NCBI RefSeq assembly: GCF_002952775.1
Contig: NZ_CP025066.1
Coordinates: forward strand, 3,224,001 to 3,288,000
DNA length: 64,000 bases
Reading direction: 5' to 3'
DNA from: Halalkaliarchaeum desulfuricum
GTDB lineage: Archaea > Halobacteriota > Halobacteria > Halobacteriales > Haloferacaceae
Position 1 is the first letter of the stretch, and every line of letters begins with the position of its first letter. Under the pieces are notes generated by a model. That model saw only the letters and a list, made by a program, of their open reading frames with translations. It ran no database searches and had not been told where the DNA came from. The translations under genes were made by a program, and so were the position numbers. Positions 10,546 through 59,327 of the stretch are shown here, one piece after another.

Positions 10546-10690
10546 CTTATGCCAACCAAACAGGCAATCTGACATTCTCGAAGCCTTCTTCCCCAAGAAG
10601 TCGTTCGAAAATGGAAGGTTCTCGTAATGACGAGGGGACTTGCTCTCTCGGACAACGTGATCCCAGACGAGTCACGAGAGAGTAATGTGA

Positions 10691-55240: not shown

Positions 55241-55272
55241 CGTCAGAAGGTCCGGGTGCGAGAATCGAACCA
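55241..55272 (-). repeat. Partial copy 1 of tRNA-His 3' end
   Basis: The stretch GTCGTCAGAAGGTCCGGGTG plus the following 12 bases repeats the T-arm and acceptor end of the tRNA-His gene at 55624, together with about 10 bases downstream of it. No anticodon half is present. It resembles the remnant left by an integration at the tRNA 3' end. Confidence 0.65.
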
Positions 55273-55327
55273 CAGTCGATCGCTTCCTTCCTCGGTTCGC
55301 TCGGAAGACTGCGCTCTCCCTGATTCG

Positions 55328-55419
55328 ATCTCGCCTTCCGGCTTTCTTCGTCACTTCGTTCCTCAGAAAGTCCGGGTGCGAGAATCGAACCGGAGCCAGA
55401 CGGTCGGCCTCGCTTCGCT
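55328..55419. repeat. 92-bp direct repeat, unit A (with tRNA 3' fragment)
   Basis: This 92-base unit is repeated with offset 117 at 55445-55536. It contains TCCGGGTGCGAGAATCGAAC (55371-55390), the T-arm/acceptor end of tRNA-His, and a GAGCGAAGCGAG-type motif at its right end. A diverged remnant of a tRNA-associated insertion is likely. Confidence 0.75.
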
Positions 55420-55444
55420 CGGCCGCTGCGACTGGCAGGGTGCT

Positions 55445-55536
55445 ATCTCGCCTTCCGGCTTTCTTCGTCACTTCGTTCCTCAGAAAGTCCGGGTGCGAGA
55501 ATCGAACCGGAGCCAGACGGTCGGCCTCGCTTCGCT
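55445..55536. repeat. 92-bp direct repeat, unit B (with tRNA 3' fragment)
   Basis: Second copy of the 92-base unit at 55328-55419, identical as far as read. It carries the third partial tRNA-His 3' end (55488-55507). A short linker of 25 bases separates the units. Confidence 0.75.
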
Positions 55537-55623
55537 GCGCTCAACTGCGCGGGCTGCCTCTTCCAAGGCCCGATTCTCTTCAAGTGGGACCTTCGACTCC
55601 TCACATTCGTTCGTCGTCAGAAG

Positions 55624-55696
55624 GTCCGGGTGCGAGAATCGAACCCGCGTCTCAGCCTCCACAAGGCTGAAGGATAACCACTACCCCAACCCGGAC
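55624..55696 (-). tRNA. tRNA-His (GTG anticodon)
   Basis: Reverse-strand cloverleaf: acceptor TCCGGGT/ACCCGGA, D-arm with GGTAGTGG, anticodon stem CAGCC/GGCTG around the loop TTGTGGA giving anticodon GTG, and T-arm GGTTCGATTC. A G at position -1 (55696) opposite C73 is encoded, the identity feature of tRNA-His. CCA is not encoded. Three partial copies of its 3' end lie downstream (55241-55536). Confidence 0.93.
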
Positions 55697-55776
55697 ACGC
55701 ACTTCAACGTACGCCGGCTGGACGGCATATACGTTACGGAACGGAAAAGCGATCTACAGAGAAAGCAGGCAGAGTG

Positions 55777-55851
55777 CCTCGGGGTCGTCCGAAAATCAGA
55801 GATTTTCGGGATCACGAGAATCTCCGATTCTCGAACGACTTGACCCCGAGG
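55777..55851 (+). repeat. Left-end structured sequence of the IS
   Basis: 75 bases folding as an outer stem CCTCGGGGTC/GACCCCGAGG (55777-55786 with 55842-55851) enclosing two perfect hairpins: CCGAAAATC-AGA-GATTTTCGG (55789-55809) and CGAGAATC-TCC-GATTCTCG (55815-55833). It has the same length, order and orientation as the right-end structure, with compensated base changes. Confidence 0.8.
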
Positions 55852-55870
55852 GTGAATGCCGTAAGCTCCA

Positions 55871-56329
55871 TTAGACGTGTTCAGTACGTTCGATATACTG
55901 TTCAATCGTCTGGCTAGATACCTCACCAGCCGTTCCAATGTAGTACGATTCTTCCCAGAATCCGCCACCCCAGAAGTAGTTTTCCAAAAGAGATTCGTGT
56001 TGCTGCCACATCTCTCTAGCTGTGATGCTCTTGACTTTTCGTGCAATTTCACTCGGGGAATGTTTTGGATGTGCTGAAAGAAACAGATGTACGTGGTCGG
56101 CTGAGATATGTAATGATAATATCTCGTAGCCGTACTCGTCACACACGTCTCTGAACGCTACTTCTAGCGACTGTTCTATCTTATCAAGCACCGGGTGGCG
56201 ATACTTTGGACATTGCAAATCTCCGATTTGCAAGCAGTCAATCTTCGATTGACGACACCACACAAAATGGTAGTTGATATTGTATACTGTGTGATTTGAC
56301 CGTGTTTCGCCCATACCGGCTAGAGTCAT
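55871..56329 (-). CDS. tnpA: IS200-type Y1 transposase TnpA
   Basis: 152 residues. HUH metal motif in ISADHVHLFLSAHP; the catalytic tyrosine is that of TIEQYIERT near the C-terminus. The N-terminal motif NYHFVWC is normally followed directly by PKYRHPVL, but here 15 residues (RQSKIDCLQIGDLQC) intervene, encoded by two hairpins (56210-56254). Without them the length (137) is normal for IS200. Activity of the altered protein is doubtful. GTG or ATG at 56314-56329. Confidence 0.88.
   Translation of the reverse strand: MTLAGMGETRSNHTVYNINYHFVWCRQSKIDCLQIGDLQCPKYRHPVLDKIEQSLEVAFRDVCDEYGYEILSLHISADHVHLFLSAHPKHSPSEIARKVKSITAREMWQQHESLLENYFWGGGFWEESYYIGTAGEVSSQTIEQYIERTEHV
56210..56254 (-). repeat. 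In-frame 45-base double-hairpin insert in tnpA
   Basis: Two hairpins with 3-base loops: TTGCAAATC-TCC-GATTTGCAA (56213-56233) and GTCAATC-TTC-GATTGAC (56237-56253). The design equals the inner hairpins of the IS ends. The insert keeps the reading frame and is bordered by ACA on both sides (56210-56212 and 56255-56257). Confidence 0.75.
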
Positions 56330-56373
56330 GGTAAAAACTTAAGTATATCCGCATCTAAGTATATGATGTAGAG

Positions 56374-56508
56374 ATGACCAAACGCCTCACCGTAGACTTC
56401 GAGGACGATTTGTACAAGGAGTTCTCGAAGAAGTGCATCGACGCTGAACGTCCAAAGTCAGAAGTCGTGCGTGAACTCGTTCAAGACTGGGTAAACGACC
56501 AAGAATGA
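56374..56508 (+). CDS. Ribbon-helix-helix protein of the IS
   Basis: 44 residues: MTKRLTVDFEDDLYKEFSKK, then a second helix with RPKSEVVRELVQDWV. This is a complete CopG/Arc-type ribbon-helix-helix domain that would bind DNA as a dimer. It overlaps tnpB by four bases (ATGA), so it is translated with it. Two copies of TAAGTATAT (56339-56347, 56357-56365) upstream are the promoter and possible operator. It could regulate transposition. Confidence 0.8.
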   Translation: MTKRLTVDFEDDLYKEFSKKCIDAERPKSEVVRELVQDWVNDQE

Positions 56509-57863
56509 CACAGATACAGGCTCTCACGAAGACACTCGTGTTCCCGCTGGATATGCAGAGTGGCAACGAGAGCCTGCTTCACGATGCCCGCTTGGAATGT
56601 CGTCGCGTGTTCAACGAGGTGCTACGCCTCAACTACGATGGATGGGACTGGAACGAGATAGAAGACGTTGTTGAGCAGAACGCAGACCTTGTTCAAAACA
56701 CCGCACAACGCATCATCGACAAAGCCTTTGACGCACTCAACAACTACTACGACAACGACGACTGGGGTCGTCCGTGGTACAAACACGAGACGTTCCCCTT
56801 GCGGATGAACTACGGCGAAGGCTACAACCTCTTTCTCGAAGACGAAACGATTCGGTTCCGTATCAGTGCAAAACCGTACAAACACGTCAAAGGCGAGCTT
56901 CGCGGCACGACAGATCAGTTCGACCTGCTCACACAGGCGATGAAAGACGATCACTGGCACGTTGGCACTGCCGAGGCACTTGTCCGAAACGGACGCGAAG
57001 AATTGCACGTCACCGTCACCAACGAAACTGCTGAAGTAGGTACAAAAGCAGCGGCAGAAACGGTCGTTGGCGTCGATATTAACGAAGACTGTGTTGCACT
57101 GGCGGCACTGACTGAACACGGAATCGAAGACTCAATTGTTCTCGACTACCCGGAAATCAAGGAACAACGCCACCGCTACTTCACGATGCGGAAGCGGATG
57201 CAGGAAGCCGGACAGACTGCGTTCAACGACGTGTTCTGCGACAAGGAGCAACGGTTCGTTCACGACCAGCTACACACGGTTTCACGGCGCGTAGTCGAGT
57301 GGATTCAGCAGTTCAACAGTCCCGTGATTGTCTTTGAAGACCTCAAAGACATGAGAGACGACATTGAGTACGGGACTCGACTGAACCGGCGACTCCATTC
57401 ACTGCCGTTCGCCAAACTGCGCGACTATATCACGTACAAGGCGGCATGGCAGGGTATTCCGTCAGACGATGTTGACCCTGAGTACACCAGTCAACGGTGT
57501 CCTGTCTGTGGACACACAGAACGGGGGAACCGCCACAAGAAACGGTTCAAATGCCGTGAGTGCGAGCATCAAGACCACGCCGACCGTGGCGCTGGTGTGA
57601 GTGTCGCGCAGAAGTGGCTGAGAAAGCAAGAAGACAGAAATGTGCCTGCTCTCAACACACTCCCACAGGTTCGAAAGTGGGAGTTGCGACAGCAGGCATC
57701 GGGGCCTGTGAACGGCCCGACCGTGACCCACCACACCGTTGAAGGCTATCAAACCGAGGGTGTGTCGGGTGTGTCCGACCAATCCACGGGAAGAAGCTCC
57801 GGGGTCGTACGGAAGACACAGTCTTCCGTGATGACGAGAGACGAAGTCTCTCGAACCACTTGA
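56505..57863 (+). CDS. tnpB: RNA-guided nuclease TnpB
   Basis: 452 residues. RuvC-like catalytic acids: VVGVDINEDCVAL (Asp, about 193), VIVFEDLKDM (Glu) and HADRGAGVSVAQ (Asp). The zinc ribbon is CPVCGH ... CRECEH just before the third motif. The last motif differs from the common DxNAAxN. The final 25 codons run through the right-end structure (57797-57871), the expected place of the guide (omega/sot) RNA scaffold. TnpB cuts DNA at RNA-specified sites and helps the element persist. Confidence 0.9.
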   Translation: MTQIQALTKTLVFPLDMQSGNESLLHDARLECRRVFNEVLRLNYDGWDWNEIEDVVEQNADLVQNTAQRIIDKAFDALNNYYDNDDWGRPWYKHETFPLRMNYGEGYNLFLEDETIRFRISAKPYKHVKGELRGTTDQFDLLTQAMKDDHWHVGTAEALVRNGREELHVTVTNETAEVGTKAAAETVVGVDINEDCVALAALTEHGIEDSIVLDYPEIKEQRHRYFTMRKRMQEAGQTAFNDVFCDKEQRFVHDQLHTVSRRVVEWIQQFNSPVIVFEDLKDMRDDIEYGTRLNRRLHSLPFAKLRDYITYKAAWQGIPSDDVDPEYTSQRCPVCGHTERGNRHKKRFKCRECEHQDHADRGAGVSVAQKWLRKQEDRNVPALNTLPQVRKWELRQQASGPVNGPTVTHHTVEGYQTEGVSGVSDQSTGRSSGVVRKTQSSVMTRDEVSRTT

Positions 57864-57871
57864 CCCCGGAG
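57797..57871 (+). ncRNA. Right-end structure / candidate omegaRNA scaffold
   Basis: 75 bases with outer stem CTCCGGGGTC/GACCCCGGAG and two perfect hairpins: ACGGAAGAC-ACA-GTCTTCCGT (57809-57829) and CGAGAGAC-GAA-GTCTCTCG (57835-57853). It overlaps the tnpB 3' end; the stop is at 57861-57863. In known TnpB systems the guide starts right after such a scaffold, which here would be sequence from 57872, the last codons of dnaG. Confidence 0.6.
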
Positions 57872-57875
57872 CAGT

Positions 57876-59327
57876 TCACGCTTCCACGAGCAACTGATCC
57901 GCAGTCAACACCCGCGTCCCGATCGGCTTTTTGACGTAGTCGCCGGCCGATCGGGCCACGAGCTGGTCGACGCCGCGCTGGGCCGCCACGTCGAGGAGTC
58001 GCTGGGTCGCCTCCCCGTCGACGACCATCGCGTGTGGCGCCGTCTCCCGGCGTTCGACAGCGTCGAACGCGTCGTCGCCGTCGATTTCCTCGAGGAGTTC
58101 GAACTCCGCATCGAGCAATCTAGCGAGCCCCGTCGATTCCGCGATGACCTCCTCGACGTGGCTCCGGAGCGTTCGGGGTCCGTCTTCGGACACCTCCTCG
58201 TCGGACTCGGTGGGCGCTGCTTCGGTCGTCTCGGGTTCCCCGTCAGCTACCGGTTCTTCGCCGTCAGCTACCGGTTCTTCGCCTTCCTCGGGGGTCTCGA
58301 CGTCCAATTCCGTGACGTCGGGTTCTGCCGGGTCAGGCTCCACCGCCGGGGCGACTTCGTCAACGGTTTCGACATCGAATTCGGCGGTTTCGACCGCCTC
58401 GTCCGTTTCCTCATCGGTTTCTCCCTCGTCGGTCGGTTCAGGGGCCGCCGGGTCAGTCGGAACCCGCGACCCCGACAGAGGGTCCGTGCCGTCCCCCTGC
58501 AGTGAGAGCCGGGCGTTGGGTTCGTCGGCGATCTGGGCGTACGGCACCTTCGCCCGGAGGGCGTCCATGACCTCCGTCCGGTCGAGTTCCTCGACGGAGC
58601 GGCCCGCCGGCGCGAACGTCACGTAGTCGACGCTGCCGATCTGGGCGAGCTCCTGGAGGATGAGCTCGCCGCCGCGGTCGCCGTCCAGAAACGCCGTCAC
58701 TGTCCGCTCTTCGGTGAGGTCGGCGATCACGTCCGGGACGTTGGTCCCCTCGACCGCGATTGCGTTTTTGATGCCACACTGGAGCAGCCGCCCGACGTCG
58801 GCCCGCCCCTCGACGACGATGACGGCGTCGGAGTCGTGGACGCGGGGACCGGCAGGCAGCCCCTCGTATTCGTCGATGTCGTCGATCCGGGCAGACTCGC
58901 GGACCTCCGCGAGGATCTCCTCGCTTGTGATGATCGACTCGTCGAACCCCTCCGCGAGCAGTTCCTTGGCCCGGTCGACGACCGCCCGGCGCTTGGCCGC
59001 ACGGACGTCCTCGATGTCCGTCACTTCGATGTGGGCGTGGCACGGGCCCACACGGGTGATCGTCTCGAGCGAGGCCGCCAGGATCGCCGTCTCCGCCTTG
59101 TTCAGGCTGGAGGCGATCGTCACCTCGCCGAACGACTGGCCGTTCTCCGATTCGATCTGTACGTCGATGCGACCGACCTTCGAGGCCTGCTGGAGCTCCC
59201 GGAGGTCCAGCTCCTCGCCGAGTAGCCCCTCGGTCTGGCCGAATACCGCGCCGACAACGTCGGAACGTTCGACGACGCCGTCGGCGGCGATGGTCGCGTG
59301 AATGAGATATTTTGCTGTGTCGTTCAT
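57876..59327 (-). CDS. dnaG: Archaeal DnaG-like primase
   Basis: A 483-residue archaeal DnaG. The TOPRIM motifs are VIVVEGRADVGRLL (about 170-183, Glu) and VTAFLDGDRGGELIL (about 210, Asp-x-Asp). The N-terminal 160 residues and the C-terminal DUF3388-like part match the archaeal form, which also joins the RNA exosome. The acidic linker (about 285-390) carries in-frame repeats such as EEPVADGEEPVADGE. The stop lies four bases from the IS right end, so the insertion spared the gene. Confidence 0.93.
   Translation of the reverse strand: MNDTAKYLIHATIAADGVVERSDVVGAVFGQTEGLLGEELDLRELQQASKVGRIDVQIESENGQSFGEVTIASSLNKAETAILAASLETITRVGPCHAHIEVTDIEDVRAAKRRAVVDRAKELLAEGFDESIITSEEILAEVRESARIDDIDEYEGLPAGPRVHDSDAVIVVEGRADVGRLLQCGIKNAIAVEGTNVPDVIADLTEERTVTAFLDGDRGGELILQELAQIGSVDYVTFAPAGRSVEELDRTEVMDALRAKVPYAQIADEPNARLSLQGDGTDPLSGSRVPTDPAAPEPTDEGETDEETDEAVETAEFDVETVDEVAPAVEPDPAEPDVTELDVETPEEGEEPVADGEEPVADGEPETTEAAPTESDEEVSEDGPRTLRSHVEEVIAESTGLARLLDAEFELLEEIDGDDAFDAVERRETAPHAMVVDGEATQRLLDVAAQRGVDQLVARSAGDYVKKPIGTRVLTADQLLVEA

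Follow-up and report, generated by a model that had tools for sequence, protein, structure and literature searches.

Transposases of the IS200/IS605 family of insertion sequences (IS) act on one DNA strand and recognise the hairpins at the ends of their elements. In IS608 and ISDra2, these are plain subterminal hairpins, tnpA and tnpB are divergent, and the element inserts 3' of a short target without duplicating it. Related enzymes have been proposed to move bacterial REP elements, and REPINs consist of short hairpin units in opposed pairs. Among described small repeats, the SMR-A class (HqIRS42/43/55) of Haloquadratum walsbyi comes closest to the structures analysed here: according to the available text of PMC3119063, these are non-coding inserts of ~110 bp, described for one species and bearing prominent terminal inverted repeats, that target near-terminal palindromes of IS605 elements and PATEs, leave no target duplication, and include strain-specific insertions; some PATEs are themselves terminal-only relics of IS605 elements. 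The tagged REPs treated in PMC3733652 include, in its available parts, CGTC palindromic repeats and Rickettsia RPE-4 and RPE-6, and no word beginning with 'Halo' occurs in the text of that paper. Here, we examine an IS200/IS605 element in a 64,000-nucleotide stretch of the Halalkaliarchaeum desulfuricum genome (the window; contig NZ_CP025066.1, positions 3,224,001 to 3,288,000), whose two ends each hold a 75-base structure with three stems.

The two 75-mers lie at 55777-55851 and 57797-57871 in the same orientation, and each combines a 10-bp outer stem with two inner hairpins that have 3-nt loops. They are very probably ordinary IS200/IS605 end hairpins, each of which carries a 54-bp mobile, non-coding double-hairpin element (DHE) between its 5' arm and its loop; that a mobile DHE was inserted is the part of this reading that we regard as nearly certain. 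On the plus strand, the left-end hairpin, which is plain in relatives, consists of the 5' arm CCTCGGGG (55777-55784), the loop CTTGA (55839-55843), and the 3' arm (55844-55851), and the right-end hairpin of the 5' arm CTCCGGGG (57797-57804), the loop CTTGA (57859-57863), and the 3' arm (57864-57871). Three relatives (L028, L030, and L058) have a plain right-end hairpin with the same arms as the window, and the plain end forms of L028 fold as DNA hairpins. The sequences flanking the window's filled ends are nearly the same as those around empty ends, on the left in L028 and many others and on the right in L028, L030, and L058. The inserts, which we call type A, occupy 55785-55838 on the left (TCGTCCGAAAATC...CTCGAACGA) and 57805-57858 on the right (TCGTACGGAAGAC...GTCTCTCGAACCA), both on the plus strand, and their borders are unambiguous against plain relatives. 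They score 72.7 and 78 bits, respectively, with R1, a covariance model built from 14 inserts (alignment A1, 14 of 26 rows, with reverse-strand doubles, other types, and degenerate rows excluded). The outer stem appeared to have 10 bp because the GA of the loop pairs with the first two bases of the insert. On the right, the insert keeps the reading frame of tnpB and gives TnpB 18 extra residues at its C-terminus. The plain hairpin plan is the one shared with IS608 and ISDra2, and the two inner hairpins of the window's ends are not part of the IS.

Plain and filled ends were judged in 46 relatives found through TnpA, with an expression-based tally corrected against the sequences. The usual end is a plain hairpin with an 8-bp stem and the loop CTTGA, which is present in the majority of relatives with readable ends. 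At the left end, 32 of the 46 have the plain form CCTCGGGG-CTTGA-CCCCGAGG or a near variant, four are filled (L032, L038, L086, and L098), and the remainder are degenerate, belong to another hairpin family, or are unreadable; at the right end, about 28 are plain and eight or nine filled, the rest not being found. Both ends were scored plain by script in 23 of the 46; the left end of L085 and the right end of L041 are plain-like, and the right end of L064 is filled. The two states also mix within single elements, with a filled left and a plain right end in L032 (the left end of L038 being filled as well) and a filled right and a plain left end in L033, L035, L048, L054, L056, and L062. The three-stem cloverleaf, which the initial annotation had taken for a variant form of the IS end, finds no support as such, since most readable relatives have a plain hairpin. 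The same annotation reasoned that related elements without the second copy would make the left copy a chance duplication; such elements exist, with plain ends in most readable relatives, but the left copy is no chance duplication, as the mobile double hairpin is also found in tnpA, close to the 3' end of tnpB, and in unrelated places.

Further evidence comes from a strain pair and from a second copy of the element. The same IS occupies the same place in Natronococcus sp. A-GB7 (L061) and A-GB1 (L062), with right-end-side flanks 90.7% identical over 2.4 kb. In A-GB1, the right hairpin holds a 58-bp type A insert and the tnpB 3' region a second double-hairpin insert. Both are absent from A-GB7, where the 114 nt separating the insert sites are identical to those of A-GB1. 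The pair shows a recent gain or precise loss of the inserts. Within the window's own genome, a copy at 2038813-2040156 is internally shortened to ~1.3 kb, has clean borders and flanks unrelated to those of the window, and carries both DHEs letter for letter. Most likely, the transposon therefore took the inserts along when it moved; its ends would have stayed mobile, and DHE-filled ends are probably still functional.

DHEs follow the plan TCGT-hairpin-spacer-hairpin-ACGA/ACCA, in which the two opposed hairpins have mostly perfect stems of ~8-10 bp and 3-nt loops. We collected 112 instances with 104 distinct sequences, 97 of the 112 having the type A length of 54 bp, and 100 distinct sites, all of which serve as examples and not as natural frequencies because the search expression fixes the outer stem bases and loci were chosen by score. 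IS-end palindromes account for 63 of these sites, and the insert has the same orientation in all 63. The other 37 are located in tnpA, in tnpB 3' regions, and, for a few, in apparently intergenic DNA; at least two of them (L183 and L244) resemble diverged IS ends. A G^C dinucleotide is split at 33 of the 37, GC making up 7.2% of flank dinucleotides. As far as the collected sequences can tell, the DHE usually splits G^C and strongly prefers IS200/IS605 elements. At the sites compared with empty ones (left end, right end, and tnpA position 3), there is no target duplication and the borders are unambiguous. Double hairpins number 34 in 617,042 scanned bases, versus none in one shuffled version of each sequence. 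A pattern for type A variants was found in 31 of 391 sampled genomes of the window's class and its reversed control in none; the flanks of these variants represent many unrelated sites, among them several tnpB 3' regions and a few that appear intergenic, judged by open reading frames (ORFs) only. Nested composite inserts of 109 bp (L086, 4496-4604) and 105 bp (L098) occur in left ends, and L086 has additional runs of three to four hairpins elsewhere. In L027 (2543-2591), L054 (2561-2609), and the tnpB 3' region of L062, a further double-hairpin type occupies a CGTC site close to the 3' end of tnpB.

Double hairpins also reside within tnpA. Type A is found inside the tnpA ORFs of relatives at the fixed point CTGTCG^CTCCACATC. 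The window's tnpA holds an in-frame 45-bp double-hairpin insert (type B) at 56210-56254 on the minus strand, which places RQSKIDCLQIGDLQC between VWC and PKYR, as judged from the TnpA alignment, the two hairpins, and relatives. A third type (type C, 51 bp) sits at a third tnpA position in relatives. The search for type B gave nine sites in seven of the 391 class genomes, all nine at the same tnpA position, with two loci (L265 and L271) in clearly different tnpA genes. TnpA proteins from 44 of the 76 loci found were aligned together with that of the window, and on a tree of 42 of these 45 rows (L064, L065, and L086 being partial or frameshifted), with low support at many forks, the 4, 5, and 6 carriers of inserts at the three positions imply at least 3, 4, and 5 changes, respectively. 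The type A insert in tnpA brings an in-frame TGA in seven of eight matched copies (L048, L055, L057, L194, L195, L199, and L205); beyond it, the ORF is intact to the usual C-terminus in six of the seven, and L205 has a further stop. A slightly different tnpA insert contains a stop in L054 and none in L061 or L062. The stop-bearing inserts are either recent, or else removed or read through. In-frame DHE inserts were seen only in tnpA and at the C-terminus of tnpB, without a systematic survey of cellular genes.

The family is widespread among haloarchaea. R1 matches at least 329 of the 391 class genomes and at least 80 of 86 genera, in a survey that scored ~14 candidates per genome with a model built from the same class; in a 120-genome sample of the phylum, all 18 matches fall in the window's order. 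In the 3.31-Mb genome of H. desulfuricum itself, R1 finds eight distinct strong places, all of them IS ends or end remnants, in addition to weak ones. A scan for perfect double hairpins over 464 kb of this genome (the window plus 400 kb) returned the three in the window's IS and two GC-rich ones that are likely due to chance; it is not a full census, having overlooked an insert with a stem mismatch at 167427 (L147). At 1409123, 1495686, and 1700381, there are solitary or terminal-only end remnants with one type A insert each. Outside the IS, the window also has a degenerate double hairpin of type A at 10601-10655 (R1, 28.1 bits), and a tandem array of similar short hairpins, containing a repeated unit, lies at about 1501-1554 of L112 (genome positions 1058966-1059019). 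At the level of sequence comparison, we thus document insertion and its precision, recurrence at many sites, presence and absence between strains, a fixed orientation in IS ends, and a second genomic copy of the element that has the two inserts as well.

That both ends share one plan and one orientation, as had been noted initially, agrees with the sequences and the fold statistics. Fold z-scores are -6.0 (left) and -6.8 (right) as RNA and -5.5 and -6.2 as plus-strand DNA, and in each case none of 200 shuffled sequences folded equally well. With DNA parameters, both 75-mers form three stems; with RNA parameters, the best fold of the left one is a single long imperfect hairpin and no cloverleaf, because its two inner hairpins are near-complementary (a 28-nt inverted repeat, 82%) and can pair together. 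The compensated stem changes reported initially are genuine and extend to many relatives: in the 14-row alignment, eight hairpin pairs vary on both sides, with no pair varying on a single side, and the stem cells of the 104 distinct inserts, in a count that omits two hairpins of odd length, comprise 1715 Watson-Crick pairs, 5 G-T pairs, and 50 mismatches, at least 39 of the latter in the outermost pair of hairpin 1. These changes had been offered as strong evidence for selection on the fold. Such selection at the RNA level is not needed to account for them, because the inserts are strain-variable, and stem changes on one side are rare, as are G-T intermediates. If RNA compensation proceeded step by step, G-U states should remain, so their near absence fits DNA copying from arm to arm, and we infer that the variable stem pairs fit the copying of a DNA palindrome at least as well as RNA compensation.

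These data bear on an RNA-based reading, in which the cloverleaf is a module kept by RNA-fold selection, on the right as part of the TnpB omegaRNA and on the left as a second scaffold. Strong folding and covariation speak for it, as does the position of the right copy, which indeed lies at the tnpB 3' end as the initial annotation had it, ends beside the expected guide start, and is close to an omegaRNA-like region at 57640-57768 (plus strand; sot2652, Rfam RF02657, 49.2 bits against a gathering score of 61). Haloarchaeal omegaRNAs, namely those of H. salinarum, are reported to have a right-end hairpin in the available text of PMC12558985. The likeness to sot2652 is nonetheless a weak match just upstream of the right hairpin: this sub-threshold match ends at 57768, no sot2652 match covers the right 75-mer, and the left copy finds no support as a second guide scaffold, with sot2652 matching only 57640-57768. 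Most readable relatives make do with a plain hairpin, the same insert is also present within tnpA ORFs, close to the 3' ends of tnpB genes, at left ends, and in DNA that appears intergenic, G-T pairs are only 5 beside 1715 Watson-Crick pairs, and the best RNA fold of the left copy is not the cloverleaf. We rejected an RNA scaffold on the plain relatives, the other insert sites, the rarity of G-T, and the RNA fold of the left copy, and consider this reading very unlikely. A dedicated cloverleaf end, recognised in its three-stem form by a TnpA sublineage, would explain why the DHE is at both ends of two copies in the genome (one of them shortened) and why its orientation never varies in IS ends; it was rejected in turn, and seems highly improbable, because the TnpA of plain-ended L028 is 92% identical to that of the window over 133 kept columns and because filled and plain ends mix within single elements (L032, L033, L035, L048, L054, L056, and L062).

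A different question is whether the inserts belong to a kind already described. Membership in the SMR-A class is suggested by the same target, terminal inverted repeats, and lack of target duplication in the available description (PMC3119063), by the nested inserts of 105 and 109 bp in two other genomes, and by type A sites in Haloquadratum genomes; the palindrome target of that class is found at 63 of the 100 distinct DHE sites. Compared with that description only, however, the DHE is 54 bp long in the great majority of instances, as opposed to the stated ~110 bp, consists of two hairpins, is class-wide, also lies in tnpA and near tnpB 3' ends, and mostly splits G^C; a search of three Haloquadratum genomes with one exact pattern found no ~110-bp versions, and we regard membership as rather unlikely. 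With the CGTC-tagged REPs, as far as PMC3733652 describes them in its available parts, DHEs share short hairpin units in opposed pairs and a location of some copies in ORFs; the CGTC families lack a dedicated transposase. The REP stems mostly start with AT and their loops mostly have 4-5 nt, whereas DHE stems start with CG, which the search expression partly fixes, and DHE loops have 3 nt; DHEs have TCGT at their outer ends followed by a variable base, so that CGTC appears only in variants starting with TCGTC. PATEs come to mind because the genomic copy at 1409123, like 17 of the 63 IS-end sites, resembles fused left and right ends with one hairpin, but PATEs, by the available account, are IS ends themselves and the DHE is an insert within such ends. 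Titles and abstract openings listed in one open library yielded nothing further to the point on such haloarchaeal elements. Finally, template switching at palindromes might create structures of this kind de novo, without any mobile sequence family, as the mostly perfect double-sided stem changes and the free variation of the loops would allow. The 54-bp plan, however, recurs at unrelated sites and in unrelated genomes with fixed ends and a fixed target, and double hairpins exceed their number in shuffled sequence, which makes such an origin barely credible, though template switching may still shape the stems.

For the movement of the inserted DHEs, we tentatively propose a single-strand mechanism. 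The DHE would move as a folded single strand and insert strand-specifically, most easily into an extruded IS end hairpin or a single-stranded IS. Mobilisation would occur in trans, with a Y1 (HUH) transposase, the kind of enzyme proposed for bacterial REP elements, as the most plausible agent, and the double-sided stem changes would come from copying one hairpin arm off the other, with or without selection for foldability. Strand-specific insertion into single-stranded DNA is suggested by the single orientation in IS ends and by the position of the insert at the stem-loop junction. Several points weigh against this picture of a mobile, hairpin-seeking element. No gene that would mobilise the DHE was identified, nor was any search for one made. 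At 20 'other' sites, hairpin enclosure did not exceed that at 238 nearby control G^C positions (p 0.41 and 0.93), in a test with rough site labels that places the tnpB-region site L221 in the IS-end class; general hairpin targeting was rejected on this ground, and hairpin targeting is supported for IS ends only. The orientation of inserts with look-alike ends was set by a scoring rule. In the loci examined, type B occurs at only one tnpA position and type C at only another, and these fixed positions could alternatively reflect spread by recombination. The Natronococcus pair does not polarise gain versus precise loss. The stem changes, moreover, fall into few tip haplotypes, freely mixed between hairpins 1 and 2, and hence represent few independent double-sided events.

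The host transposon is a complete IS200/IS605 element of 2122 bp at 55758-57879 (plus strand, right end ..TTCAC). Copies in the same genome have a common left border after TCTAC and a right end in ..TTCAC or CTCAC, and the window flanks, once joined, are 93% identical over 239 nt to an uninterrupted tRNA-His/toprim junction in a genome of the same genus (G318); from these copy borders and this empty site, we conclude that the element inserted 3' of its short target without target duplication. The pentamer TCTAC to its left (55753-55757, plus strand), common to the other copies, is the predicted transposon-associated motif (TAM) of the element's TnpB. The element encodes a Y1 transposase on the minus strand (tnpA, 55871-56329; PF01797, E 1.5e-34) and TnpB on the plus strand (56505-57863; PF07282, E 2.6e-19), both matches exceeding curated cut-offs. 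Between them, a plus-strand ORF of 44 residues (56374-56508; PF01402, E 4.8e-6) encodes a CopG-type ribbon-helix-helix protein, overlaps the start of tnpB, and is possibly a regulator of the IS element. The Y1 TnpA, TnpB, subterminal hairpins, and target use without duplication confirm the IS605-type identity assigned initially; the location given then was right, and the true borders lie slightly beyond the proposed 55777-57871. At 55243-55695 of the window, the intact tRNA-His gene is accompanied by several incomplete copies of its 3' part (GTCCGGGTGCGAGAATCGAACC), which resemble scars left by repeated integration at the end of the tRNA.

Taken together, the inserts quite possibly represent a new, order-wide family of double-hairpin mobile DNAs of ~50 bp, among the smallest known, that would parasitise haloarchaeal TnpA/TnpB transposons. 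Their types would home to the end hairpins, to three positions in tnpA, and to the omegaRNA-encoding 3' end of tnpB, inserting strand-specifically as folded single strands at G^C, with stems that change by DNA copying from arm to arm. Textbook covariation between two copies can stem from a mobile DNA palindrome and not from a functional RNA, which calls for caution in the discovery of omegaRNAs and riboswitches. How REP-like and SMR repeats move has long been an open question; with sites that are empty in one strain and filled in another, it becomes testable in genetically tractable haloarchaea. The analysis also documents a repeat that is mobile and widespread and whose targets are the hairpins and the guide-RNA region of TnpB transposons, from which Cas12 is presumed to descend.

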